Made by a program: the position numbers and the translations under genes. Positions 4,960 through 50,798 of a stretch of DNA of 64,000 nt are shown here, one piece after another (position 1 is the first letter of the stretch; the number at the start of each line of letters is the position of its first letter). Origin of the DNA: Bacteroidales bacterium (GTDB lineage: Bacteria; Bacteroidota; Bacteroidia; Bacteroidales; Bacteroidaceae); NCBI GenBank assembly GCA_015060885.1, contig SUXO01000001.1, positions 62,001 to 126,000 on the forward strand, read 5' to 3'. The notes beneath the pieces are model-generated. The model ran no database searches and was not told the origin of the DNA. It saw nothing but the letters and a program-made list of their open reading frames with translations.

Positions 4960-6063
4960 ATGGCTTTGAAAGCAGGAATTGTGGGCTTGCCCAATGTAGG
5001 AAAATCGACACTTTTCAACTGCCTGTCGAGTGCAAAAGCACAGGCAGCAAACTTCCCCTTCTGTACCATCGATGCACAGCTGGGACAAATAACAGTACCC
5101 GATGAGCGACTCAACAAACTCGCCGAGATTGTTCACCCCGGCCGCATAGTACCCGCCACATGCGACATTGTGGACATTGCAGGCCTTGTAAAAGGCGCAA
5201 GCAAAGGCGAGGGACTGGGCAACCAATTCCTGGGCAACATACGTGAAACCGATGCCATAATACACGTTCTGCGCTGTTTCGACAACGACAACATTGTACA
5301 CGTCGACGGTTCTGTTAACCCTGTGCGCGACAAGGAGATTATCGACATTGAGTTACAGTTGAAAGACCTTGAAACCATTGAAAACCGCATAAAACGTGTA
5401 GAGAAACAGGCACGTGTGGGCGGCGACAAGCAGGCAAAACTCGAATACGATGTACTAATGCGGTACAAGGATGCTCTGGAAGCGGGAAAATCGGCCCGTA
5501 CAGTGGTTTTTGAGACCGAAGACGAGCAGAACATAGCAAAGAATCTCTTCCTTCTCACATCGAAGCCGGTTCTCTATGTGTGCAATGTCGATGAAACATC
5601 GGCTGCCAAAGGCAACAAATACGTAGATGCAGTGCGCGAAGCTGTGAAAGATGAGAATGCCGAACTGCTAATAATTTCGGCACAGACCGAAGCCGACATT
5701 GCCGAACTCGAAAGCTACGAGGAGAAGCAGATGTTCTTGGAGGATATGGGGCTTACAGAGTCGGGCTGCGACCGACTTATAAAGGCCATATACTCTCTTT
5801 TGAACCTGCAAACATTCATCACCGCCGGCGAAATGGAGGTAAAGGCATGGACATTCCGCAAGGGATGGAAAGCACCCCAGTGCGCAGGTGTCATACACAC
5901 CGATTTCGAGAAAGGATTCATTCGCGCCGAGGTGATAAAGTATGACGATTATATAAACTATGGTTCCGAAGCAGCAGTGAAAGAGGCCGGAAAGATGGGT
6001 GTCGAGGGCAAGGAGTATGTGGTACAGGACGGCGATATAATGCACTTCCGCTTTAATGTATAA
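4960..6063 (+). CDS. ychF: Redox-regulated Obg-family ATPase/GTPase YchF
   Basis: Universally conserved P-loop NTPase of the Obg family. It prefers ATP over GTP, binds ribosomes and affects the oxidative-stress response. The protein is 367 aa when started at 4960 (MALKAGIVGLPNVGKST), matching the family length. The ORF-track start at 4861 lies upstream of the promoter and adds 33 unrelated residues, so I reject it. Visible motifs are the P-loop GLPNVGKST, switch II DIAGLVKGASKGEGLGN and a C-terminal TGS-like domain ending VQDGDIMHFRFNV. The stop is 6 bp before lgt, so the two genes are probably cotranscribed. Confidence 0.95.
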   Translation: MALKAGIVGLPNVGKSTLFNCLSSAKAQAANFPFCTIDAQLGQITVPDERLNKLAEIVHPGRIVPATCDIVDIAGLVKGASKGEGLGNQFLGNIRETDAIIHVLRCFDNDNIVHVDGSVNPVRDKEIIDIELQLKDLETIENRIKRVEKQARVGGDKQAKLEYDVLMRYKDALEAGKSARTVVFETEDEQNIAKNLFLLTSKPVLYVCNVDETSAAKGNKYVDAVREAVKDENAELLIISAQTEADIAELESYEEKQMFLEDMGLTESGCDRLIKAIYSLLNLQTFITAGEMEVKAWTFRKGWKAPQCAGVIHTDFEKGFIRAEVIKYDDYINYGSEAAVKEAGKMGVEGKEYVVQDGDIMHFRFNV

Positions 6064-7107: not shown

Positions 7108-8616
7108 CTATATGCTACGTGTGGCATCCAAACGCTCCTTTATGCCCAACGATGCAAGGTGTTTAACCTTGTCGGGTGAAAGGTTCAGTGCATCGGCTAT
7201 GCGCAGGCCATACTCGGCATCGGCAAGGTAACAATGCGCTGCGTGGCGATATTTTATATTATCGGTTACAGGCATCATATCCTCGGCGGTGTTGCTTATC
7301 AACAGTTTGCGTTTCTCCTCGGTGAGCAGACGATAAAGATTGCCGGGTTGGCAGAAACAGTCATCGGTGCGGTCATCGTGGTAGTCGTAACGGCCGGCAT
7401 CGGCACCGATAGGGGAGTGCGCACCGGGATAATCCTTCACCTGCCACTCACCTATACTGTTGGGCGAATAACCTTTTGTTGCACCGTTGTTATCGTCGAC
7501 ACGCATAAGGCCGTCGCGGTGGAAACTATGCATAGGGCAGCGGGGACGGTTAACCGGTATCTGGTCGTGATTTACACCAAGCCTGTAACGCTGGGCATCG
7601 CCATAGGAGAAGAGCCTGCCCTGCAACATCTTATCGGGCGAGAGGCCAATACCGGGAACAATGTGGGCAGGGTTAAATGCAGCCTGTTCTATCTGGGCAA
7701 AATAGTTATCGGGATTTCTGTTGAGTTCCATTATACCCACCTCGATGAGTGGAAAATCCTTGTGGCTCCATACTTTGGTGAGGTCGAACGGGTTTTCCTT
7801 ATGATTGCGTGCCTGCTCCTCGGTCATTATCTGGAAACAGAGTTTCCAGCGTGGATAGTCGCCCGTTGCAATTGCATTGAAGAGGTCGCGGCCGTGGCTT
7901 TCACGGTCTTTTGCTATGACAGCGGCAGCCTCCTCGTTGCTTAAATTCTTTATTCCTTGCAGAGTTATAAAATGGAATTTCACCCACACACGCACTCCCT
8001 GTGCGTTAATAAGACTGAATGTGTGTGAACCGAAACCGTGCATATGACGGTAGGTTGCAGGTATGCCACGGTCGGACATTACAATGGTCACCTGGTGAAG
8101 TGCTTCGGGAAGCATTGTCCAGAAATCCCAATTACTCTGCGGAGAGCGAAGATTGGTCTGCGGGTCACGTTTTATGGCGTGGTTAAGGTCGGGAAACTGT
8201 AAAGGGTCGCGCAAAAAGAATACAGGAGTGTTGTTTCCCACAAGATCCCAGTTACCCTCTTCGGTGTAGAAACGCACTGCGAAGCCTCTTATGTCGCGCT
8301 CGGCATCGGCTGCACCCCGCTCGCCGGCCACGGTTGAGAAGCGTACAAGCACATCGGTTTTCTTGCCCACTTGCGAGAATAGCGATGCACAGGTGTAGCG
8401 CGTGACATCGTTCGTTACTGTAAAGGTACCGAAAGCACCGCTCCCTTTTGCATGCATACGGCGTTCAGGGATTACCTCACGGTCGAAGTGGGCAAGTTTC
8501 TCTATGAGCCAGTTGTCTTCGAGCAATACCGGCCCGCGGCTGCCGGCTGTCAAGGAATTGGTATTGTCGCTCACAGGAGCCCCGGACTCATTTGTAAGAT
8601 GTTTTTTATTATCCAT
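7108..8616 (-). CDS. katA: Monofunctional haem catalase
   Basis: Splits hydrogen peroxide into water and oxygen in the cytoplasm. The 502 aa are typical of small-subunit clade 3 catalases. The catalytic His lies in [12 protein letters not shown] near residue 54, the distal-pocket region in [20 protein letters not shown], and the proximal haem Tyr in [12 protein letters not shown] near residue 338. The N-terminus ([15 protein letters not shown]) matches the family start. Codon use is C-rich at third positions, suggesting strong expression. It stands alone on the minus strand between lgt and mutS. The gene name follows common usage; katA and katB cannot be told apart here. Confidence 0.95.
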
Positions 8617-8727
8617 AATATATTCTGTTTAGTTATAACATTTTATAAACCGAACAATTTGGATAAAAGTTTGTAAATGAGAATAAAAAATAAATATTCC
8701 ATCTTTTTGATTGGAAACAAATAAAAT

Positions 8728-8760
8728 GTGGGTGACCCAAAAGTGAAATGGGTCACCCAC
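8728..8760 (-). terminator. Hairpin in the mutS-catalase gap, probable mutS terminator
   Basis: A perfect 12-bp stem (8728-8739 with 8749-8760, GTGGGTGACCCA type) with a 9-base loop is followed on the minus strand by ATTTTATTT. A weaker hairpin around GGCTTGCGAAGCC lies nearer mutS (about 8793-8817). The 299-bp gap 8617-8915 otherwise holds only a doubtful 82-codon minus-strand ORF that runs through both hairpins. Confidence 0.6.
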
Positions 8761-8915
8761 GTTTGTAGGGAGGTTGGATAAAAAGAGCTATTTTTAGGCT
8801 TGCGAAGCCCGAAAAAACGCAGTTTACTAAGCGTAAATGAGTATTTTTCGGTCAAGCGTAACAACAAAAGAGCCTTTTTAGTCAGCCTCATTTCAGTAAT
8901 CTCCGGAGCAGGGAT

Positions 8916-11537
8916 TTATTTTACAATCTTCTGTATCTCATTAAGTTTATTCAACGCTTCGAGCGGAGTGAGGTTATTCACGTCTATGCCCAGAATTTCG
9001 TCACGCACTTGTGAGAGGACAGGGTCGTCGAGCTGGAAGAAATTAAGCTGAACACCTTCGCGGCTCTCGGCAATTTCGGTTGCAGGGGCCTTTTTAAGGT
9101 CGCCACGGTTGTCATTGGCTTCGAGTTTGCTCAATATCTGTTCCGAGCGTCTTATTACACTCTTGGGCATACCTGCGAGCTTTGCAACGTGGATACCGAA
9201 AGAGTGTTCGCTGCCGCCCACCATTAGCTTGCGCAGGAATATTACGCGACCATCGATTTCACGTACCGATACATTGTAGTTCTTTATGCGCGGGAAACTC
9301 TTCTCCATTTCGTTGAGTTCGTGATAATGGGTGGCAAAGAGTGTGCGGGCACGGCCGCGTGCATTTTCGTGTATATGCTCAACAATGGCCCAGGCAATGG
9401 ACATACCGTCGTATGTCGATGTTCCGCGGCCAAGCTCGTCGAAGAGCACAAGGCTACGCCCCGAAAGGTTGTTGAGAATGCTTGCAGCCTCGGTCATTTC
9501 GACCATAAAGGTTGACTCGCCGGCCGATATATTGTCGCTTGCACCGACACGTGTGAATATCTTGTCGACAAGGCCTATGTGGGCACTCTCGGCCGGAACA
9601 AAACAACCTATCTGCGCAAGCAGTGTTATGAGGGCTGTCTGTCGCAGAAGAGCCGACTTACCTGCCATATTTGGACCGGTGACAATTATTATCTGCTGCT
9701 TGTCGCTGTCGAGGTAGAGGTCATTGGGGATATAATCCTCGCCAACCGGCATCTGACGCTCTATAACAGGGTGGCGGCCCTGCTTTATATCGAGAATATT
9801 TTCCTCGCTTATCACAGGCCTTATGTATTTATAGGCGCGTGACACGTTGGCAAACGAGAGCAGGGTGTCGAGGCGGGCCAGGAGGGTAGCGTTCTGCTGT
9901 ATCGAGGGTATGTACGATGCAAGGTCCGTTACAATCTCACCGAAAATGCGCCCTTCGAGCGCAAGAATCTTCTCTTCGGCACCAAGTATCTTTTCTTCAT
10001 ACTCTTTGAGTTCTTGTGTAATGTATCGCTCGGCATTTACAAGTGTCTGCTTGCGTATCCACTCTTCGGGAACATTATCCTTGTATGTGTTGCGCACTTC
10101 AATATAATAACCGAACACGTTGTTGAACGATATTTTAAGGCTTGGTATTCCTGTGCGCTCACTCTCGCGCTGCTGCAACTGCATAAGGTAATCCTTGCCG
10201 TGATAGGCTATGGCACGCAATTCGTCGAGCTGCTCATTGACACCGTCGGCCACAACACCTCCCTTGTTCAGCAGAAGAGGCGGTTCGGGAACAATCTCAC
10301 GGGCTATACGGCTGCTTATGTCGGCACAACAATCGAGGCGGGCACCAATACTCTTTATAACCTCGTTCGACGACTCTTCACACGCCTTTTTTATAGGTTC
10401 TATGGCTTGCAGGGCTATCTTCAACTGCACAAGCTCGCGTGGTGACACTCGCGCAGCCGCCACCTTTGAGATTATTCGTTCAAGGTCGCCTATCCTGTGA
10501 AGCTGCTCATCGACGATGTCGCGGAATTCGGGCTCGCGGAAGTAATATTCCACAATATCAAGACGCTCATCGATTGGTTTCTTGTCTTTTAGGGGGAATA
10601 CCAGCCAGCGTTTGAGCAGACGGGCTCCCATAGGTGTAATGGTCTTGTCTATCACAGAGAGCAACGAGGAACCGCCGTCGTGCATACTTCCCATAAGTTC
10701 AAGACTGCGGATGGTAAACTTGTCGAGCCTCACATAACGCTCCTCTTCAATGCGTGAAATGGTGCGTATGTGCGATATCTGGTTATGCAGTGTCACGCCA
10801 AGATAGTGCAGAATGGCACCGGCTGCTACTATTCCACTGCGCAAGTGGCTTATGCCGTAACCTTTGAGATTCTTCGTTTCGAAATGCTTTGTAAGTTTCT
10901 CATTGGCAAATTCGTCGGTAAAAACCCAGTCGTCGAGTTCAAAGGTGAGCAGCTTGCTGCCGAAACACTCCTCGAAACGTTTTTTGTTTCCACGCTCGAA
11001 AAGTACCTCTTTGGGACGGAAATTGACAAGGAGTTTATCTATGTAATCGAATGTTCCTTCGGCCACAAGGAACTCGCCGGTTGAAATATCGAGGAACGAT
11101 ACACCGCACATAGGCTTTCCAAAGTGTACTGCTGCAAGAAAGTTATTCTCCTTATAGTCGAGTATGTTGTCGTTTATTGAAACACCGGGTGTAACAAGCT
11201 CTGTTATTCCACGTTTCACCAATTTCTTGGTCATTTTGGGATCTTCGAGCTGGTCGCAAATGGCAACACGCTTGCCGGCACGCACCAGTTTAGGGAGATA
11301 AGTGTCGAGTGCGTGAAAAGGAAAACCGGCCATTTCGGTAGCCTGTGCCGAAGGGTTTTTCCCGTTGGAACGTTTTGTGAGCGTTATTCCAAGTATCTCC
11401 GACGCTATGACTGCGTCGGAACAGTATGTTTCGTAAAAATCGCCGCAACGGAACAGAAGCACTGCATCGGGGTGCTTTGCTTTAAGTTCCAAAAACTGGC
11501 GCATCATGGGGGTTACAGCTGTCTCTTTTTCGGCCAT
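8916..11537 (-). CDS. mutS: DNA mismatch repair protein MutS
   Basis: Mismatch-recognition ATPase, 873 aa, full length. The mismatch-binding domain I carries the Phe-X-Glu motif in [12 protein letters not shown] near residue 28. The ABC-type ATPase domain has Walker [14 protein letters not shown] near residue 615 and Walker [13 protein letters not shown]. The C-terminal helix-turn-helix dimer region ends [14 protein letters not shown]. The start fits the family ([15 protein letters not shown]). It is transcribed alone from a TACCTTCG-type promoter. No MutL lies nearby, which is normal for this phylum. Confidence 0.98.
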
Positions 11538-31668: not shown

Positions 31669-31728
31669 ATGTCATTGGAGATAGAGCGCAAATTCCTTAT
31701 GTCATTGGAGATAGAGCGCAAATTCCTT
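31669..31728 (+). repeat. Perfect 30-bp tandem duplication at the CYTH gene start
   Basis: Bases 31669-31698 and 31699-31728 are identical (ATGTCATTGGAGATAGAGCG...), in frame, each with its own ATG. The absence of any mismatch suggests a recent slippage or unequal-exchange event. Confidence 0.97.
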
Positions 31729-32175
31729 GTTACCGGTGACAGCTACAAACAGCAGGCCTACGCTTGCGACCGCATTGCGCAAGGGTACATCTGCCGCCAG
31801 GGCGGTAATTCGGTGCGCGTGCGTGTGCGTGGCGAAAAGGGCTATCTTACCATAAAAGGGCCATCGCTCGACGGCGGGTTGAGCCGTTACGAATGGGAGC
31901 GCGAGATACCTGTGGCCGAAGCCTTGGAACTTATGAAGTTATGTCACGGAGGCATAATAGATAAGTGCCGTTATCTGGTGAAATGTGGTGCGCACACCTT
32001 TGAGGTCGATGAGTTCTATGGCGATAACGAAGGCCTTGTTGTTGCCGAAGTGGAGCTTGGCAGCCTTTCCGAGCCGTTTGAATGCCCCCCGTTCTTGGGG
32101 CGCGAAGTCACAGGCGAAGCAAAGTACTACAACGGCCATCTGTCACGTTTCCCTTATAAAATGTGGGAAAAGTAA
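31669..32175 (+). CDS. CYTH-domain protein (triphosphate tunnel enzyme)
   Basis: Member of the CYTH/triphosphate tunnel superfamily, which includes class IV adenylate cyclases and inorganic triphosphatases. The signature EIERKF (ExExK) lies at the N-terminus, and charged strands follow (VRVRVRGEKGYLTIKGP, YEWEREIP). The first ten codons are present twice in tandem, so the protein starts MSLEIERKFLMSLEIERKFL. Initiation at the second ATG (31699) gives the standard 158-aa protein; the annotated 168 aa carries an extra copy of the motif strand. Transcribed directly behind prfB. The substrate is not predictable. Confidence 0.88.
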   Translation: MSLEIERKFLMSLEIERKFLVTGDSYKQQAYACDRIAQGYICRQGGNSVRVRVRGEKGYLTIKGPSLDGGLSRYEWEREIPVAEALELMKLCHGGIIDKCRYLVKCGAHTFEVDEFYGDNEGLVVAEVELGSLSEPFECPPFLGREVTGEAKYYNGHLSRFPYKMWEK

Positions 32176-37558: not shown

Positions 37559-38806
37559 ATGGAACTTAACGATATTTTCAAGAGTGTGAAGAGCGCCTCG
37601 AAAGGGGTGCTTAAATTGAGTGAGGAGCGTGTGAATAAAGTGTTGTGCGCAGTTGCCGATGCGGCTGTGGAGTGTGCTCCCGAAATTCTTGCCGCCAACA
37701 ACGAGGATTTGGCCAGAATGTCGCCCGACGACCCCAAATATGACCGCCTTCGCCTCACGAAGGAGCGTATCGAAGCAATTGCAGCCGATATGCGCAAGGT
37801 GGCATCCCTTCCCTCGCCGCTTGGCCGCATCCTCAAAGAGAACACCCTGCCTAACGGCCTTCACATATCCCGTGTGAGTGTTCCTTTCGGTGTTATAGGC
37901 GTTATATATGAGGCGCGCCCCAATGTAAGTTTCGATGTCTTTGCCCTCTGCTTGAAGGCGGGCAGTGCCTGTGTGCTTAAAGGCGGCAGCGATGCCGAAA
38001 TGTCTAATAAGGCCATTGTGAAGGTTATACGCAGTGTGCTTGCAGGCTATGGCATAGATATACACACTGTGGAATTGCTCCCCGTGGAGCGCGAAGCGAC
38101 AGCAGCCCTGCTCAATGCTCGCGGTTATGTCGACCTGCTCATTCCTCGTGGCAGCAGCAACCTCATAAACTATGTACGCTCCAATGCCACAATCCCTGTC
38201 ATAGAAACGGGTGCCGGTGTGTGCCACACCTATTTCGATGCATCGGGTAACCTTGAAAAGGGAATGGCTATTGTGAACAATGCCAAGACACGCCGTGTGA
38301 GTGTGTGCAACGCGCTCGACTGCCTGCTTGTGAATACAGCAAGGCTGGGTGAGCTTGCAGCCCTCTGCGCCCCCTTGCAGAGCAGCAATGTGAAGATTTA
38401 TGCCGATGAAGCCGCTTACGGCGCACTTTCCGGCAACTACCCGGCATCCTTGCTCTTCCGCGCCACAGCCGACAGCTATGGTACCGAATTTTTGAGCTAT
38501 GCAATGGCGGTGAAAACAGTAGCTTCGGTCGATGAGGCCATTGCCCACATTTCGGAATACGGGTCGGGCCACAGCGAATGTATAATAGCCGAAGAGGAGG
38601 CAGCCGTGAATGCCTTTACCCTTCTGGTCGATGCAGCCTGTGTATATGCCAACGCACCCACATCGTTTACCGACGGCGCACAGTTCGGCTTGGGAGCCGA
38701 AATCGGCATCAGCACACAGAAACTGCACGCCCGTGGCCCTATGGCTCTCGACGAGATTGTCACCTATAAATGGATTATAAAAGGTAACGGGCAGGTGCGC
38801 GGGTAA
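37559..38806 (+). CDS. proA: Glutamate-5-semialdehyde dehydrogenase
   Basis: Reduces gamma-glutamyl phosphate to the semialdehyde, working with ProB. The protein is 415 aa from 37559 ([16 protein letters not shown]). The ORF-track start at 37508 lies inside proB and is rejected. Motifs are [30 protein letters not shown], the catalytic Cys in [13 protein letters not shown] near residue 260, and [19 protein letters not shown]. It ends the proline operon, 10 bp before the tandem hairpin repeats. Confidence 0.97.
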
Positions 38807-38816
38807 TTTCTGCCCG

Positions 38817-39047
38817 TTGGTTCGCTTTTCTATCAGCACTCCACGCGGCAACATATTAACGTTGCTACGCGTGACTATTGCTGAAAAGCTCACCGATAAT
38901 TAGTTGTCATTGGCTCGCTTTTCTATCCGCATCCGCTGAAAAGCTCACCGATAATTAGTTGTCATTGGTTCGCTTTTCTATCAGCACTCCACGCGGCAAC
39001 ATATTAACGTTGCTACGCGTGACTATTGCTGAAAAGCTCACCGATAA
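38817..39047. repeat. Three tandem palindromic repeats between proA and the 1308-aa gene
   Basis: Two identical 83-bp units (38817-38899 and 38965-39047) flank a 45-bp shortened unit (38910-38954) that lacks the centre and has one or two changed bases. All three are joined by the same 10-bp linker TTAGTTGTCA. Each full unit folds on itself: GCTTTTC pairs with GAAAAGC at the base, and GCGGCAAC/GTTGCTACGC stands near the tip around ATATTAAC. The units fill the whole convergent gap. They may serve as terminators or be a REP/MITE-like element. Confidence 0.9.
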
Positions 39048-44501: not shown

Positions 44502-44879
44502 TTACTGTTTTTGTATAATTTCCAACAACTCTTTTATCTCATCCTCGCTCAACTGCTCCTTTTCGACAAAGAACTTTACCAGCGAGGAGCCCGACCCTCC
44601 GAAGAACGAATCCTTAACCTCGCTCATTACCTGGTTGGTATATTGCTCCTTGCTTACAAGGGGGTAGTAAGTGTGTGTCTTGCCGGTGAGTTTGCGGAAA
44701 TCGACAAACCCTTTGTTCAGCAGTATTTTAAGGAAAGTGGATATGGTGGTGTAGGCGGGTTTGGGCGCGGGGTAACGTGCTATGATATCGTGAATACAGC
44801 CGCCTTCGGGCAATTCCCACAGGGCGTTCATTACCTGCATTTCGGCTTTTGTAAGTGTGTCGAATTTCTTTTTGCTCAT
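44502..44879 (-). CDS. BlaI/MecI-family transcriptional repressor
   Basis: 125-aa winged-helix repressor. The N-terminal DNA-binding half (FDTLTKAEMQVMNALWELPEG; YTTISTFLKILLNKGFVDF) is followed by a dimerisation half (YPLVSKEQYTNQVMSEVKDSFFGGSGSSLVKFF) containing the region cut in relatives. First gene of the operon with the M56 peptidase and the 1308-aa protein, and probably autoregulated through the tandem dyads in its promoter. No beta-lactamase gene is near. Confidence 0.93.
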   Translation of the reverse strand: MSKKKFDTLTKAEMQVMNALWELPEGGCIHDIIARYPAPKPAYTTISTFLKILLNKGFVDFRKLTGKTHTYYPLVSKEQYTNQVMSEVKDSFFGGSGSSLVKFFVEKEQLSEDEIKELLEIIQKQ

Positions 44880-44904
44880 ATCGTGATATATTTTCCGGTT
44901 GCGG

Positions 44905-44952
44905 CAAATATATTACGAAGTTTTTAGAAATCTAAACTTTTAGAAATTAAAA
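44905..44952 (-). promoter_or_regulatory. Promoter of the BlaI-type operon with two putative operators
   Basis: The minus strand reads TATATTTG (44905-44912), a -7 box 26 bp before the repressor start. On the upstream side lie two related near-palindromes starting 16 bp apart: TTTAGAAATCTAAA (44923-44936) and TTTAGAAATTAAAA (44939-44952). They cover the -33 region, a good place for a repressor dimer pair. Confidence 0.5.
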
Positions 44953-45011
44953 ATGTGAAGAACGTGCTTTTTTAACTTTCATTATTAGTAATAGGGACTT
45001 GCCGACACAAA

Positions 45012-45068
45012 ATCATCGGAACTGTCGGCAACAGTCGCGCAGTGTAATAAGAGCCTCCGGGCCCATAT
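45012..45068 (-). repeat. Left direct repeat (orphan wbqC 3' end)
   Basis: Identical over 57 bp to 50186-50242 except C45058 versus A50232. On the minus strand it still reads MGPEALITLRDCCRQFR and a stop; the difference is CCG versus CCT, both proline. It ends 10 bp before the stop codon of the O-antigen-ligase-like gene. Confidence 0.95.
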
Positions 45069-45078
45069 AATGTGTAAT

Positions 45079-46641
45079 TTACATATTTATAAATATAAGT
45101 TCATTTATTACATCTTTAATTATATTATCAATTTGTTTTGAAGGAACTTTAATTCTTTTGGTTAATATGATATTGCCTACATTGATTAAATTGTTTGTAT
45201 CGCAATTTATTTTGTAAATTAAAAACTGTTTATATAGTGGAATAAAGCGATTTGGACACATTTTTTGCGCTTTAGAATAATGAAGAATGGCATTATTATA
45301 TTGATGCTGTTTTTTATATATATCACCCAATAGTAGCTCTAAATCATAATCAGCCCAGTATTTCCTACATATCAACGCTGTTTCAAGAGACCTATTATAA
45401 TCTTCATAAAGATATAATTTTACAGAATAGTTATATAGAAAATATGGGTCATTTCCAAGTATTGACATCAAAGAGTCATATTTTGATATAAATGTATCCT
45501 TTTTAGAGGTTATATAGGCGATTTTACACCATTCTTTTTCTGCAGATATTCGTTCGATTATACGATATAGTACAATTGAAGAAAGACAAAATAATATAAT
45601 GATAAATGGATATTTGATTATGTTTTTTTTGATAAAACGAAATTTATACGCATTGTGAATTAAAATATAACTATTTATCGCAATTATAATCCAAGTAAAA
45701 GGATAGTATAGTGGATAAGAAAAGGCTCCTAAAACACCTATTGTTGCAATAGAAACAAGTGCATACATTCCGATACTTGATGGTGATTTTTTATAGCAAT
45801 GTATCATAAGACCGATGAAAATACATAATATAATCAATCCGATTATTCCGAAACATATACATATTGCAAAAAAATCATTGAATACGTGTTTTACATTGTC
45901 TGCTAATAAAGAAATATTATTGTTTGAATTTTTTGTCAACCATTCTGCTTGAAAATCCATATAATGCGCAGAAATGCCATTAAAGCCATAGCCTATTATC
46001 GGGTGCTTCTTAATCATTTCCCAAGCACTGCATAGTATCAATAAACGCCCATCTGCAGAATCTTTTTTTATAAAATACATTATCGGTAAAAGGACTATAC
46101 AGAAACAGAGAAACAACCATTGTAACCACTTCCTATACTTCTTATTAAAAACCCAAACGGAGCATGGAACAAATATTCCTGCAATTATTCCCGACCGAGA
46201 TCCAGAAAGTATTAAAGCGGTGCATATAATAGCAAATAAAGAAAGCGATAATAGTTTATGGAAGTTTTTTTTACTTATTTGTATGAGGTAGAGGCAATAA
46301 GGAGTACTTATGCTTAAACATGCAGCCAAACCTGCCGGATTGTCAAATCCTCCAACAATTTGAGGTGGAGTTTTAAATTGAAATAATTGAATTATAGCAT
46401 AAATAGATTGGCAAAAACAAATAAATACCACTGCTATAATCAAATATTTTTCATATATTTTTATTTGTTTCTTTAATAATACGATAATACATCCAATCAT
46501 ATTGCCAACAGTAACAAGACCTAATGTATATAACCATTTTGTCAGTATCTGCGTATCCGTCATTTGGGAGCTATATAGGAATGTTGCAAATATAGATAGG
46601 GTTAAAAAATATAACAGTTGTATTATTTGTATAACCATCAT
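45079..46641 (-). CDS. O-antigen-ligase-like (Wzy_C) membrane protein with TPR tail
   Basis: 520 aa, AT-rich. About ten to twelve hydrophobic helices fill residues 1-380. The Wzy_C signature region DGRLLILCSAWEMIKKHPIIGYG lies near residue 197 at the start of the large periplasmic loop. The C-terminal 120 residues are soluble, with TPR-like helices (LELLLGDIYKKQHQYNNAILHYSKAQ). Such proteins join a glycan to an acceptor (LPS core, or protein in PglL-type enzymes). No glycan locus is adjacent inside the island, so the acceptor is unknown and a peptide or protein target is only a guess. Last gene of the island run, 8 bp after the ATPase gene. Confidence 0.8.
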   Translation of the reverse strand: MMVIQIIQLLYFLTLSIFATFLYSSQMTDTQILTKWLYTLGLVTVGNMIGCIIVLLKKQIKIYEKYLIIAVVFICFCQSIYAIIQLFQFKTPPQIVGGFDNPAGLAACLSISTPYCLYLIQISKKNFHKLLSLSLFAIICTALILSGSRSGIIAGIFVPCSVWVFNKKYRKWLQWLFLCFCIVLLPIMYFIKKDSADGRLLILCSAWEMIKKHPIIGYGFNGISAHYMDFQAEWLTKNSNNNISLLADNVKHVFNDFFAICICFGIIGLIILCIFIGLMIHCYKKSPSSIGMYALVSIATIGVLGAFSYPLYYPFTWIIIAINSYILIHNAYKFRFIKKNIIKYPFIIILFCLSSIVLYRIIERISAEKEWCKIAYITSKKDTFISKYDSLMSILGNDPYFLYNYSVKLYLYEDYNRSLETALICRKYWADYDLELLLGDIYKKQHQYNNAILHYSKAQKMCPNRFIPLYKQFLIYKINCDTNNLINVGNIILTKRIKVPSKQIDNIIKDVINELIFINM

Positions 46642-46649
46642 TATTGTAT

Positions 46650-47369
46650 TTATCTTAACAGCTCATTGATTATTTTATTGTAATTTAATATAAAATATTT
46701 AGTAAAACAAAATTGTTCTGTATTTTCATAGTTGGTAAGTTCCAAACCGTAGTTTGTTATTTTGTATATTTCAGCACCAGGGTATGCAAGTAAAATTGGT
46801 GAATGTGTCGCAATTATAAATTGTGAATTGTTTTTTTCTAATTCTTTTATTTTTACAATCAATTTAAAAATACTTGATAATGATAATCCTGATTCTGGTT
46901 CATCAAAAATATATAAGCCATTGCCCGATAATCTATTTAATACAACTCCAAGAAAGCCTTCTCCATGGGAACGCTTGTGGAGTGCACCACCATAATTTTT
47001 TAATAATTTAAATCCATCTGTTATTCTATCGATTTCAGTTGCGATATTATAAAAACTTTCTGCTCTTAAAAAATACCCATCTTTATTCCTAATAGTTCCT
47101 CTCGTTAATTTAATATCGCGATACAAGGTTGAGTGAGTGTTCTGTGTTTGATAGTTTAAGAACAAACTTCCCCCCTCTGGATTAAAGCCTGCACGTATCG
47201 CAATAGCTTCAATTAAAGTGGATTTACCAGTACCATTCTCACCAATAATAAAGGTCACATTATTATTGAATTCAAATTCGTTTAAGTTTCGAATTGCAGG
47301 AATATTATATGGGTATTCCAAACGTTCTGATATCTGTTTTTCGTTGGTTATCTTTTTTATGTAAATCAT
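46650..47369 (-). CDS. ABC-type AAA ATPase (COG3910-like)
   Basis: 239-aa soluble ATPase of the SMC/ABC class. Walker A is GENGTGKSTLIEAIA near residue 43, the signature region is KRSHGEGFLGVVLNRL, Walker B is GLYIFDEPESGLSLSS near residue 152, and the switch His is in FIIATHSPILLAYPG. It lacks membrane segments and coiled coils, so it is not a transporter by itself. The family is common as a stand-alone gene of unknown role; relatives with nuclease partners act in phage defence. The start overlaps the upstream small gene by 4 bp, tying it to the two small proteins. Confidence 0.9.
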   Translation of the reverse strand: MIYIKKITNEKQISERLEYPYNIPAIRNLNEFEFNNNVTFIIGENGTGKSTLIEAIAIRAGFNPEGGSLFLNYQTQNTHSTLYRDIKLTRGTIRNKDGYFLRAESFYNIATEIDRITDGFKLLKNYGGALHKRSHGEGFLGVVLNRLSGNGLYIFDEPESGLSLSSIFKLIVKIKELEKNNSQFIIATHSPILLAYPGAEIYKITNYGLELTNYENTEQFCFTKYFILNYNKIINELLR

Positions 47370-47698
47370 TCTGAGATTAAACCCTTATCAAGTAATTCCT
47401 TTTTTAGTTTATAATATAATTCTAATTCAAGTTCTTGTTCTTGAATTGTATTATTTACATCACGAATGTTGGTAGGTGTTGAAATAACACTTTCGTCTAA
47501 TGTATCAAATGCTATTGTAATAACTTCATTGAGATTTAATTTTCTGTGCTCCCAAGAATAAAAAAGTGCATTTTCGTCCATTCCGTTAATGCTGATATTA
47601 AAATCCCCTTCTTTATTCGATATTATTATTCCAAAAGACCCGGATTTTAATGCTGCATAAATATTTTCTTCTCCGGCTTTTATTATAAAACCATTCAT
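47366..47698 (-). CDS. Small island protein, paralogue of its upstream neighbour
   Basis: 110 aa, not recognised. Predicted mostly beta (FIIKAGEENIYAALKSGSFGIIIS) with a charged C-terminal helix (ELELYYKLKKELLDKGL). It shares with the next protein the MNG start, a strand-rich front, an NEVITI/GDIIKI segment, a Thr-Pro patch and the same helix ending in KGL. No signal peptide, so cytosolic. Overlaps both neighbours by 4 bp. The pattern suggests a protein pair working with the ATPase encoded behind it. Confidence 0.7.
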   Translation of the reverse strand: MNGFIIKAGEENIYAALKSGSFGIIISNKEGDFNISINGMDENALFYSWEHRKLNLNEVITIAFDTLDESVISTPTNIRDVNNTIQEQELELELYYKLKKELLDKGLISE

Positions 47699-48030
47699 AA
47701 TAATCCTTTGCTTTTTAGCGAAGTTTCTAATGCATAAAACATTTCCAATTTTGATGGTAGTGGGGTTATATTATTATCATAAACACTTTCAATTGGTGTT
47801 GTTGTATCTTTTATATTGACAAGTCTTATTTTAATAATATCTCCTTTCTCTATCAGGTTGTATTTATGCCCAATGTGTCTGATTTTATTATCATAATCAA
47901 TGCTTGCTGAATATAAAAAAGCTCCCTTTTTATTATTTGAGTTTATAGAATTTATATGTACGATCGTTTGACCGTTCTTAACTCCAATTAGAGTTCTTTT
48001 ATTATTATAAATTATTTCTATACCATTCAT
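47695..48030 (-). CDS. Small island protein, paralogue of its downstream neighbour
   Basis: 111 aa, not recognised. It starts MNGIEIIYNNKRTLIGVKNGQTIVHIN and ends SKLEMFYALETSLKSKGLL, parallel in layout to the downstream 110-aa protein, so the pair probably arose by an old tandem duplication. No hydrophobic segment and no cysteines. The stop overlaps the next start by 4 bp, and its own start overlaps the stop of the 322-codon gene, so all three are translationally coupled. Confidence 0.7.
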   Translation of the reverse strand: MNGIEIIYNNKRTLIGVKNGQTIVHINSINSNNKKGAFLYSASIDYDNKIRHIGHKYNLIEKGDIIKIRLVNIKDTTTPIESVYDNNITPLPSKLEMFYALETSLKSKGLL

Positions 48031-48974
48031 TGTTTTTTACATTTATGTGTTGAGTATGGAGGCCAATAGCCTTGTGTTAAACAGAATTGTAAGCAAATAG
48101 AGCAACCATCAATTATTTCAGAATAACAAGATTCAAATTCTTGCTGACAGTATTCGTAGTTTTCATCTGCGGTCTTATCAAATTTTTTGCATACAAGATA
48201 TTCATATAGCATCACGCCGGCTGTGTATACCATAAATCCTGTCGCAACAGCTGTGGCAGCCCCAATAACCATAATTTCATCGCCAGGTATAGGGGTCGCT
48301 ATTGCAACTAACATTGATGTAGCTAAAACCTTATGACATAATTCACCAAAGTTTTCGTTAGATTCACTTCTTGTTTTTATCAATATGTGCTGTGTGGCTG
48401 TACGAGAGGTATGTATCATCAAACCTTGACTTTCTAGATATTGAATCTCTTTCATTCCATAGTATAGTACTGATGTTACATTAAATAACCTTTCCTGTTG
48501 TATTTGTGGTACTACTTCATAAATATCTTCATTTATTTTCAATAAAACATTGTAGTATTCCTTAATTGAGGTAGTAGAGTTGCATTCGTCAATTATTCTA
48601 TTTAAGAATTCAATTTGAATTTTTGTTAAATTTTTGACTTGTTCTACAAATCTTTTTGGGCTTATGTTGTATTCATAGATAGAGCCTTTTGTTTTACAAA
48701 TATTGGGGTTCGCATTGTAAAAATCATTATAAAAATTTTCTTTAAATTCTAACGACTCGTTAGCATTTGAATAATCGACCCCTTGTTTATGTAAGTTTCT
48801 AATTGTAATATTTAATTCTTTTGCAACTCCTTGTCCTAATTGTTTTGAAGTTTCTGGCCAATTTTCTCTGTACTCAATTTGTCTAAATCTGTTAAATTCA
48901 TCTAAATCGCTGCTACAATAGCAAAAAATAATTATCGAAAGACTTAAAAAAAGTGTTAAAATTTTGATTCTCAT
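48027..48974 (-). CDS. Secreted island protein with hydrophobic Gly/Ala segment and Cys-rich tail
   Basis: 315 aa from the ATG at 48974 (MRIKILTLFLSLSIIIFCYCSSD). The earlier in-frame ATG at 48995 adds seven residues before the signal peptide and overlaps the upstream gene. An N-terminal export signal, perhaps a weak lipobox, leads into a mainly helical body. A long apolar stretch follows near residues 216-262 (MLVAIATPIPGDEIMVIGAA), and then a tail with seven cysteines (EYCQQEFESCYSEIIDGCSIC). I recognise no family. A secreted effector, toxin or carrier is conceivable from the shape alone; an ordinary envelope protein is equally possible. Confidence 0.65.
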   Translation of the reverse strand: MRIKILTLFLSLSIIIFCYCSSDLDEFNRFRQIEYRENWPETSKQLGQGVAKELNITIRNLHKQGVDYSNANESLEFKENFYNDFYNANPNICKTKGSIYEYNISPKRFVEQVKNLTKIQIEFLNRIIDECNSTTSIKEYYNVLLKINEDIYEVVPQIQQERLFNVTSVLYYGMKEIQYLESQGLMIHTSRTATQHILIKTRSESNENFGELCHKVLATSMLVAIATPIPGDEIMVIGAATAVATGFMVYTAGVMLYEYLVCKKFDKTADENYEYCQQEFESCYSEIIDGCSICLQFCLTQGYWPPYSTHKCKKQ

Positions 48975-48978
48975 AAAA

Positions 48979-50019
48979 TTATTTAACGTTTGCATTTATT
49001 GTTATTGTATATATAGGTGTATCTAAAGAGTTAGATGCTATGTGTACCTCTCTATAAATACTGCCTTTATTTTCTGGTGTGAAATCAAATTTTAATATTA
49101 TTGATTTTCCAGGGTTTATAATGTTTTTTTTTGAACTATTTATCTTTACACAACTGCAACTCGTTAGTATATCTGAAATTTTAAGAGGATGTCCCCCGTT
49201 GTTAAATATTTCAATATTCACATTGTATGTGTGGTTTATTATGCAATTGGGTAGGTTTACTATATTTGTTGATGAGGAAATCTTTGGTGCAGAATTATTA
49301 TACATAGGATTAAGGACTTTGTTTGCTATTAATAATTCATCATAATAGTAAAATATATCTGATGCAGAATCAAATTCAAGAAGTTCCTTAGCTGTTTCTC
49401 TTGCTTCTATGGTTTTATTAAAATGTATCTGATTTTCTAATTTTAAATATAAGAGATATGGGTGTTTTCTTTTTGCAAGTAATGAGTCTATACAAATATC
49501 AGCATCTTTGTTTGTATATATTTTTGATTTTAATATTAAAGCATTATTAACCATATTTATGATATCCTTTTTATCTTTTTCATAGTTTTGGTTGTAATGA
49601 AACTCAGAGGAAGTTTCTTCTGAAAGAATTGCTTTATCAATATAATAGAAACTCTCTATTGAACTTCCAGGTACTAATTCTATTAGTTGTTTATTTGTGT
49701 TGAATACACAAGTAACAGGATAAATGTGTGGGGATAATAACTTTGAGTACCATTTGTTATCGTTGTTGTAGACATTTATAAAGTTATACAAAATACTGTG
49801 GGGCAATTTTGTATGTGTTTTTATCATTTTGAGATATTCGTTTACGGTGAAATGTGTTGAGTCTATAAGTACTATGCAGAAAGGCAGGCCTGTATTATCT
49901 GACAAACTGCGAATCTCATCTATACTTTTATTATTATATGTATAAAACTTATTTTCTTCATTAATACATGAAAGTGTAAAAAGAATACTCATAAAGTAAA
50001 AAAATAAAAAATTTTTCAT
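48979..50019 (-). CDS. Lipoprotein with C-terminal DUF1573 domain
   Basis: 346 aa. Signal peptide and lipobox MKNFLFFYFMSILFTLSC predict a lipid-anchored protein. The front half (GLPFCIVLIDSTHFTVNEYL) may be a degenerate thioredoxin-like fold without a CxxC pair. The last 90 residues are an Ig-like DUF1573 domain (LKISDILTSCSCVKINSS; KGSIYREVHIASNS). In Bacteroidetes such proteins are often encoded beside exported peptides and Wzy_C proteins. First gene of the island run, with 167 bp of AT-rich DNA in front holding only a weak promoter match (TATTTTTA on the minus strand). Confidence 0.78.
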   Translation of the reverse strand: MKNFLFFYFMSILFTLSCINEENKFYTYNNKSIDEIRSLSDNTGLPFCIVLIDSTHFTVNEYLKMIKTHTKLPHSILYNFINVYNNDNKWYSKLLSPHIYPVTCVFNTNKQLIELVPGSSIESFYYIDKAILSEETSSEFHYNQNYEKDKKDIINMVNNALILKSKIYTNKDADICIDSLLAKRKHPYLLYLKLENQIHFNKTIEARETAKELLEFDSASDIFYYYDELLIANKVLNPMYNNSAPKISSSTNIVNLPNCIINHTYNVNIEIFNNGGHPLKISDILTSCSCVKINSSKKNIINPGKSIILKFDFTPENKGSIYREVHIASNSLDTPIYTITINANVK

Positions 50020-50185
50020 TTTAATAAAAGCTAATTCGTCCGAATTTTAGGTATTTATGGCGGTGTAAAAATAATAAAAATTACATAATGTATAATTCCT
50101 ATACATATATTTTAGTAGCTTGTGTCTATATTTTTCTTTTGTAACGTTATTACAGCATTGTTTCTACAATGTATAAGGAAATATT

Positions 50186-50242
50186 ATCATCGGAACTGTC
50201 GGCAACAGTCGCGCAGTGTAATAAGAGCCTCAGGGCCCATAT
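50186..50242 (-). repeat. Right direct repeat (3' end of wbqC)
   Basis: The 57 bp end exactly one base beyond the wbqC stop codon (TCA on the plus strand at 50187-50189) and match the left copy at 56 positions. Sequence similarity stops abruptly on both sides. Confidence 0.95.
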
Positions 50243-50798
50243 TGAAAAGCAGGTCAATGATACTTAAATTGGGAATGAATCCGTGGCGTGCTGCAAATAC
50301 CTGGTAGTAGGGTTCGGGGGAGTAGCCCTCTATTGTGGCAAGGGCTTTGGGCTCGGCAATGTGGCGCAGTTCCTCCACTGCGCTATCGGGCGTGTCAACC
50401 GCTTTGCGGTCGAGTCCCAGAAGTTCACACACAACAGCGTGGAGCCGCATGTTGAAATCCATAAGGAACCCGTCGCGTTCTTGGTAGAAATGGGCAAAAT
50501 CGTCGGCGTAATAGTCGAAGAAAGGGCTTTTGCGGTAGGCGCTTACAATGGCGTTCCAGTGCAGGTGTCGCCAGTTTCCGTGTTCGCTTATACGCACATC
50601 GCGCATAGCCTGGTTGCCGTTGTGTACAATGGGTATGGTAAGGGCCTGTGTCCCGTTTTCCGTGGCTATGACAGCTCTGTTGCGAAAGGTCTGTTTCACA
50701 AACGGGGAGCTGCCGTCTATAATTATTCCATCGGAGGCATACAGGCGGGCATACAGCGGCACGGGTGCCAGGTAGAGCGGGTGTGCAAGTATGTTCAT
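50187..50798 (-). CDS. WbqC-family protein
   Basis: 203-aa protein of the WbqC-like family. Relatives are found near O-antigen and lipid genes, and their reaction is not settled. Typical stretches are YASDGIIIDGSSPFVKQTFRNRAVI, HNGNQAMRDVRISEHGNWRHLHWNAIVSAYRKSPFFDYY and DLLFNMGPEAL. The gene lies 6 bp after lepB on the same strand. Its last 17 codons and stop form the right direct repeat of the island, yet the protein looks complete, so insertion restored the coding end. Confidence 0.88.
   Translation of the reverse strand: MNILAHPLYLAPVPLYARLYASDGIIIDGSSPFVKQTFRNRAVIATENGTQALTIPIVHNGNQAMRDVRISEHGNWRHLHWNAIVSAYRKSPFFDYYADDFAHFYQERDGFLMDFNMRLHAVVCELLGLDRKAVDTPDSAVEELRHIAEPKALATIEGYSPEPYYQVFAARHGFIPNLSIIDLLFNMGPEALITLRDCCRQFR

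Follow-up and report, generated by a model that had tools for sequence, protein, structure and literature searches.

Insertion accompanied by duplication of a gene tail is a well-known route by which DNA islands enter genomes. Among integrase islands of the icd type, the element brings a replacement tail for its target gene and a block of identity of up to ~250 bp (PMC10111431), and the length of this block varies from island to island (PMC12884075; PMC10111431). In E. coli, DNA with homology at one end was found to yield mostly anchor duplications of 109-950 bp, formed by a single crossover (PMC3240628). Many transfer hotspots are free of integrases, and recombination at the flanking core genes has been held responsible for them (PMC5635113). 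Here we analyze a 64,000-nucleotide stretch from a Bacteroidales bacterium (the window), in which the 3′ end of wbqC lies on both sides of an AT-rich insert, and compare this locus with the described systems.

Results

Geometry of the wbqC 3′-end repeat

One long and nearly perfect direct repeat occurs in the window, a 57-bp pair (copies A and B) that is 56/57 identical (blastn E 1.9e-25) and spaced 5,174 bp from start to start. The repeat and its surroundings are as follows, in window coordinates.

44502..44879, reverse strand: blaI-like repressor, native downstream neighbor of wbqC (81-83% identical and beside wbqC in congeners G023, G016 and G015)
44880..45011, no strand: original host sequence downstream of wbqC, from the relic tail to the blaI-like gene (alignment with G023, G016 and G015)
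44999..45031, reverse strand: 9-bp inverted repeat TTGCCGACA/TGTCGGCAA, across the boundary between copy A and the native flank
45012..45068, reverse strand: copy A, distal wbqC tail and relic junction, attL/attR-like (direct repeat; flank aligns to the congeners' wbqC-blaI intergenic region)
45069..50185, no strand: AT-rich island, 5,117 bp (GC 26-34%; site without island in three congeners)
50186..50242, reverse strand: copy B, proximal junction, last 17 wbqC codons plus stop and 1 base (direct repeat)
50187..50798, reverse strand: wbqC, intact, 203 aa (Pfam PF08889, E 3.2e-36; orthologues in 39/44 congeners)

Copy B consists of two bases, 17 whole wbqC codons, the stop codon (50187-50189) and one base past the stop, which is where it begins. 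A reading of this DNA made earlier from its letters alone (the sequence-only reading) had placed the repeat in just this way, and the coordinates of the two copies bear it out. It had also described the sole mismatch correctly: CCT in wbqC (copy B) is CCG in copy A, and both encode proline. Exact identity within the repeat extends over runs of 10 and 46 bp, too short for an assembly join to be suspected. The hairpin formed by TTGCCGACA/TGTCGGCAA is a weak signal (fold z -1.8); its inverted repeat is retained by copy A and the native flank, and the island cuts it off from the working wbqC.

The 57 bp occur twice, and no more, in the window's own genome (G000), a MAG that is 88.5% complete, and not once in the viral contigs. 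This rules out a dispersed repeat unrelated to wbqC, which the sequence-only reading had named as fatal to its case. The window contains two other repeats. Between convergent genes at 38787-39047 lies an intergenic repeat made up of a pair of 96-bp copies (94%) and three units of 52 bp, and at 31669-31728 an exact 30-bp tandem duplication at the start of a 168-aa ORF (31669-32175) results in two in-frame start codons.

The island between the copies

The insert has a GC content of 26-34%, against about 50-54% in the chromosome on both flanks, and carries six genes, all on the same strand as wbqC.

45079..46641, reverse strand: Wzy_C/O-antigen-ligase-like membrane protein with TPR tail, 520 aa (PF04932, E 3.6e-17)
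46650..47369, reverse strand: AAA/ABC-like ATPase, 239 aa (PF13304, E 5.7e-16)
47366..47698, reverse strand: 110-aa protein, paired with its 111-aa neighbor (no family; relatives beside the same ATPase in G664)
47695..48030, reverse strand: 111-aa protein (no family above cut-off; relatives in G664)
48027..48995, reverse strand: putative lipoprotein, 322 aa, Cys-rich end (no family)
48979..50019, reverse strand: DUF1573/HYDIN-type Ig domain protein, 346 aa (PF07610, E 3.9e-13)

Family searches found no integrase, resolvase or transposase among these six genes. Relatives of the ATPase that are 66-74% identical occur in other families of the order, the DUF1573 protein has relatives at the domain level only, and no relative of the 322-aa putative lipoprotein was found among 150 related genomes. 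In plasmids and phages, matches to the island were limited to short stretches of the ATPase gene at 73-80% identity, and no relatives of the ATPase were found in viral contigs. By its base composition and the distribution of its genes, the island is thus foreign.

A further observation concerns the small proteins. In G664 (L112, 6640-10772), which comes from another family of the order, nine proteins of ~100-116 aa stand in tandem ahead of a 66% identical ATPase, and several of the nine are relatives of the island's 110- and 111-aa proteins. This row and its ATPase are an undescribed putative Bacteroidales module in which an ATPase accompanies paired small proteins.

The empty site in congeners

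The genus sample comprised 44 Bacteroidaceae genomes, 39 of which contain wbqC. Three of those among the nearest by wbqC (G023, G016 and G015) are free of the island, and in each wbqC directly adjoins a blaI-like gene, followed by an M56 gene and a Sel1-repeat gene. The window has the same genes on the far side of copy A. The native stretch that leads from copy A through TTTTGTGTCGGCAAG to the blaI-like gene aligns with the congeners' intergenic region, so position 45011 and everything leftward of it is the former downstream sequence of wbqC, split off by the island. At the tail, one edge of the island reads ...AATTACACATT into the repeat and the other starts AATATTTCC... after it. Given the empty site and the aligned flank, copy A is a relic of the wbqC tail that marks the far junction, and copy B is the tail that completes the working gene. 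The comparison therefore supports the 3′ end of wbqC as the point of insertion, with the repeat marking both junctions, much as the sequence-only reading had proposed. That reading would have been undone by tandem copies in strains lacking the island; the island-free genomes have none.

Is the wbqC end an attachment site?

An insertion junction is one part of what had been claimed for this "attachment-like" end, and that part stands; the other, a dedicated attachment site, is not supported, since no other element found ends in the 57 bp. The suggested search for such elements was negative in the window's own genome, in 399 family genomes and in viral contigs, and a common attachment site across the family is rejected on this ground. 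Nor was an isolated wbqC tail found elsewhere among the 399 family genomes, the window's genome standing alone in the search output; extra tail matches in G022, G084 and G353 turned out to be full genes and were discarded. The tail repeat was present at 0/80 further wbqC loci, and neither the wbqC tail nor wbqC relatives were found in viral contigs.

Gene content behind wbqC is variable across the genus, and tail duplications there are rare. The genus scan revealed one in G035 (L039, G035:C16, 15175-15537), where 98 bp of the wbqC tail are duplicated at 94% identity around a 168-bp spacer in a genome that is 7% contaminated and on a contig that carries the wbqC locus twice, in inverted orientation. 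The working wbqC of G035 ends in a new sequence, DSMRVK*; an older end of its own, decayed, is retained by the distal copy.

Origin of the two copies

From the synonymous mismatch, the sequence-only reading had argued that the copies were alleles of a working gene from two hosts, and had expected one copy to match a different lineage. Neither does. Copies A and B are 56/57 identical to each other, and each agrees with the four nearest congeners at no more than 36-38 of the 44 coding tail positions that align. The final codons, CCRQFR*, are common to both copies and absent from every congener, so that any second donor could, on these alignments, only be conspecific or a member of a nearly identical species. 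The synonymous change itself is weak evidence, because a single change in the tail is silent in 40 of 168 possible cases (24%) and copy A, as a relic, is free to drift. Across the compared wbqC genes this proline codon is CCC in 29, CCT in 7 (the window's gene counted), CCG in 4 and CCA in 1; the counts, mostly CCC, set neither CCT nor CCG as ancestral. The allele argument is not decisive, and another lineage is not what it points to.

Other tail duplications

The tail scan covered some 1.5 Mb of the 2.24-Mb MAG, or about two thirds, and returned two cases comparable to the wbqC island. In the first (G000:C57), the 3′ end of pstB and its terminator are duplicated over 301 bp at 97.7% identity around 7.4 kb of 34% GC; the copies lie at 5219-5518 and 12946-13246 of L217 (G000:C57:66000-85900). 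The cargo includes a Fic protein, a GmrSD-type protein, a peptidyl-arginine-deiminase-family protein and others, without a recombinase. Coding differences between the pstB tails include one synonymous (CTG/TTG) and one non-synonymous (ATG/GTG) change, and the latter indicates that tail differences are not always silent. An empty site for the pstB island was looked for and not found. With most congeners the window's genome shares a pstB identity of 90-97%, and with G023, G015, G016 and G011 one of only 80-81%; from these identities, pstB has probably been replaced in that clade, which is the nearest to the window's genome by wbqC.

The second case is the tail of a GGGtGRT-family gene (G000:C31; L304, G000:C31:1-20000, 8228-11443), present in scrambled copies, where a 121-bp direct repeat of that region flanks 2.4 kb of recombinase-free cargo with 33% GC. 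Beyond this genome, Paraprevotella RGIG8997 (L154, 16782-19058) holds three tails of a ccsA-like gene, 37-43 bp long and ending in TGA or TAA stops, around two AT-rich inserts of ~1 kb. This arrangement looks like serial accretion behind one gene, and more like site-specific accretion.

Tail duplications outnumbered head duplications by 9 to 3, small counts that do not make the excess firm. The repeat lengths differ by locus (57, 98, 121 and 301 bp), and no motif common to the repeats or island ends of the tail-duplicating islands was found beyond chance, one comparison (wbqC/GGGtGRT) reaching p 0.02 among about 35. Only two tyrosine recombinases were found in the window's own genome, of 324 and 347 aa and presumably XerC/D by size, and no serine recombinase. 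Also in this genome (L236, G000:C11, 11911-13024), two adjacent lipoprotein-like genes are nearly identical at their starts and at their tails (88-bp repeat, 92%) and have diverged in the middle.

Discussion

The reading that we prefer, with a probability of about 0.5, is that a foreign AT-rich cluster was brought in by one crossover in the wbqC tail, through homology and without an integrase. The donor would have been a circularized or partly trimmed fragment, a circular DNA carrying the gene cluster together with a piece of wbqC tail. One reciprocal crossover in the last part of wbqC would join the circle to the chromosome and leave, in order, a wbqC gene whose tail is complete (copy B), the cargo, the leftover tail (copy A) and the old downstream sequence. 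The crossover would be an ordinary homologous one, its partner DNA coming from the same or a near-identical species, and would require no dedicated integrase; the 5′ edge of the repeat may then be an illegitimate join, and the 3′ edge the place where homology ends. Repeats that vary in length across loci without a common core are what a single crossover predicts, and these two features, together with the missing integrase and the species-specific tail, slightly favor the homologous route. Several points count against it. The negative search for an empty pstB site and the small numbers of tail and head duplications weaken the case. At 57 bp, the repeat is short for efficient recombination of the RecA type, a MAG that is 88.5% complete could lack an integrase that the organism has, and a repeat that restores the 3′ end of a gene is the classic mark of an integrase island.

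The last point leads to the strongest competitor, which we consider a serious possibility at somewhat under even odds. A tyrosine recombinase, since lost or acting in trans, would have used the wbqC 3′ end as attB, so that copies A and B would be attL and attR and the element would have supplied a replacement tail. The repeat takes in the end of the gene up to a point just beyond the stop codon and leaves wbqC preserved, the target is repeated at both ends of the island and uninterrupted in relatives, and known identity blocks do differ in length (PMC10111431; PMC12884075); the shortness of the 57 bp and the serial tail copies in Paraprevotella strengthen this explanation further. Against it, the island carries no integrase and the genome only the two XerC/D-sized enzymes, and the junction is unique among the 399 family genomes, the 80 further wbqC loci and the viral contigs, with no attachment core reused by related elements. 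The tail is moreover species-specific, unlike conserved attB cores, and its core is not common to the other tail-duplicating islands.

Duplication of the tail in place, by unequal exchange or an error in insertion repair, followed by neutral mutation of the non-coding copy, would dispense with a second host altogether. Near-identical, species-specific copies would be expected from it, as would a silent change in 24% of cases; yet it leaves 5 kb of foreign DNA lying exactly between the copies unexplained and requires two coupled events, which makes it improbable. A transposon that makes a long target-site duplication would likewise flank its insert with a direct repeat, but it is hardly credible here, with no transposase, no terminal inverted repeats, no related ends and 57 bp too long for a target duplication, the usual ones being far below that length.

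What most deserves to be followed up is that tail duplications recur within one genome. Bacteroidaceae may repeatedly capture small, AT-rich, recombinase-free cargo behind conserved genes, with the tail duplicated and no single attachment sequence, whether by a general integrase-free route or by an unknown enzyme that works on gene ends in trans; as a generalization this is speculative, and we give it a small chance of being right. Were the pattern seen at wbqC, pstB and the GGGtGRT gene to hold, it would provide a sequence signature for integrase-free gene acquisition in gut Bacteroidaceae. At wbqC, the duplicated tail delimits the acquired cluster to the base and shows how a conserved operon can gain cargo and remain unbroken.

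The wbqC locus resembles three kinds of described system. With icd-type islands and prophages in the 3′ ends of protein genes it shares a duplicated tail, a target whose function is kept, a relic tail at the far end and an empty site in relatives; unlike them, the wbqC island has no integrase, and no other element with its junction was found. Cis-mobilizable or decayed islands of the CIME type, flanked by att sites and devoid of their own integrase, are likewise repeat-flanked cargo without a recombinase, but neither a helper integrase nor a related complete element was found for the wbqC island. The single-crossover, homology-facilitated insertions studied experimentally have repeats of 109-950 bp, compared with 57 bp here, and have never been observed in this organism; what they have in common with the wbqC island is foreign DNA placed beside one stretch of homology, with the anchor duplicated in part and over a variable length (PMC3240628).
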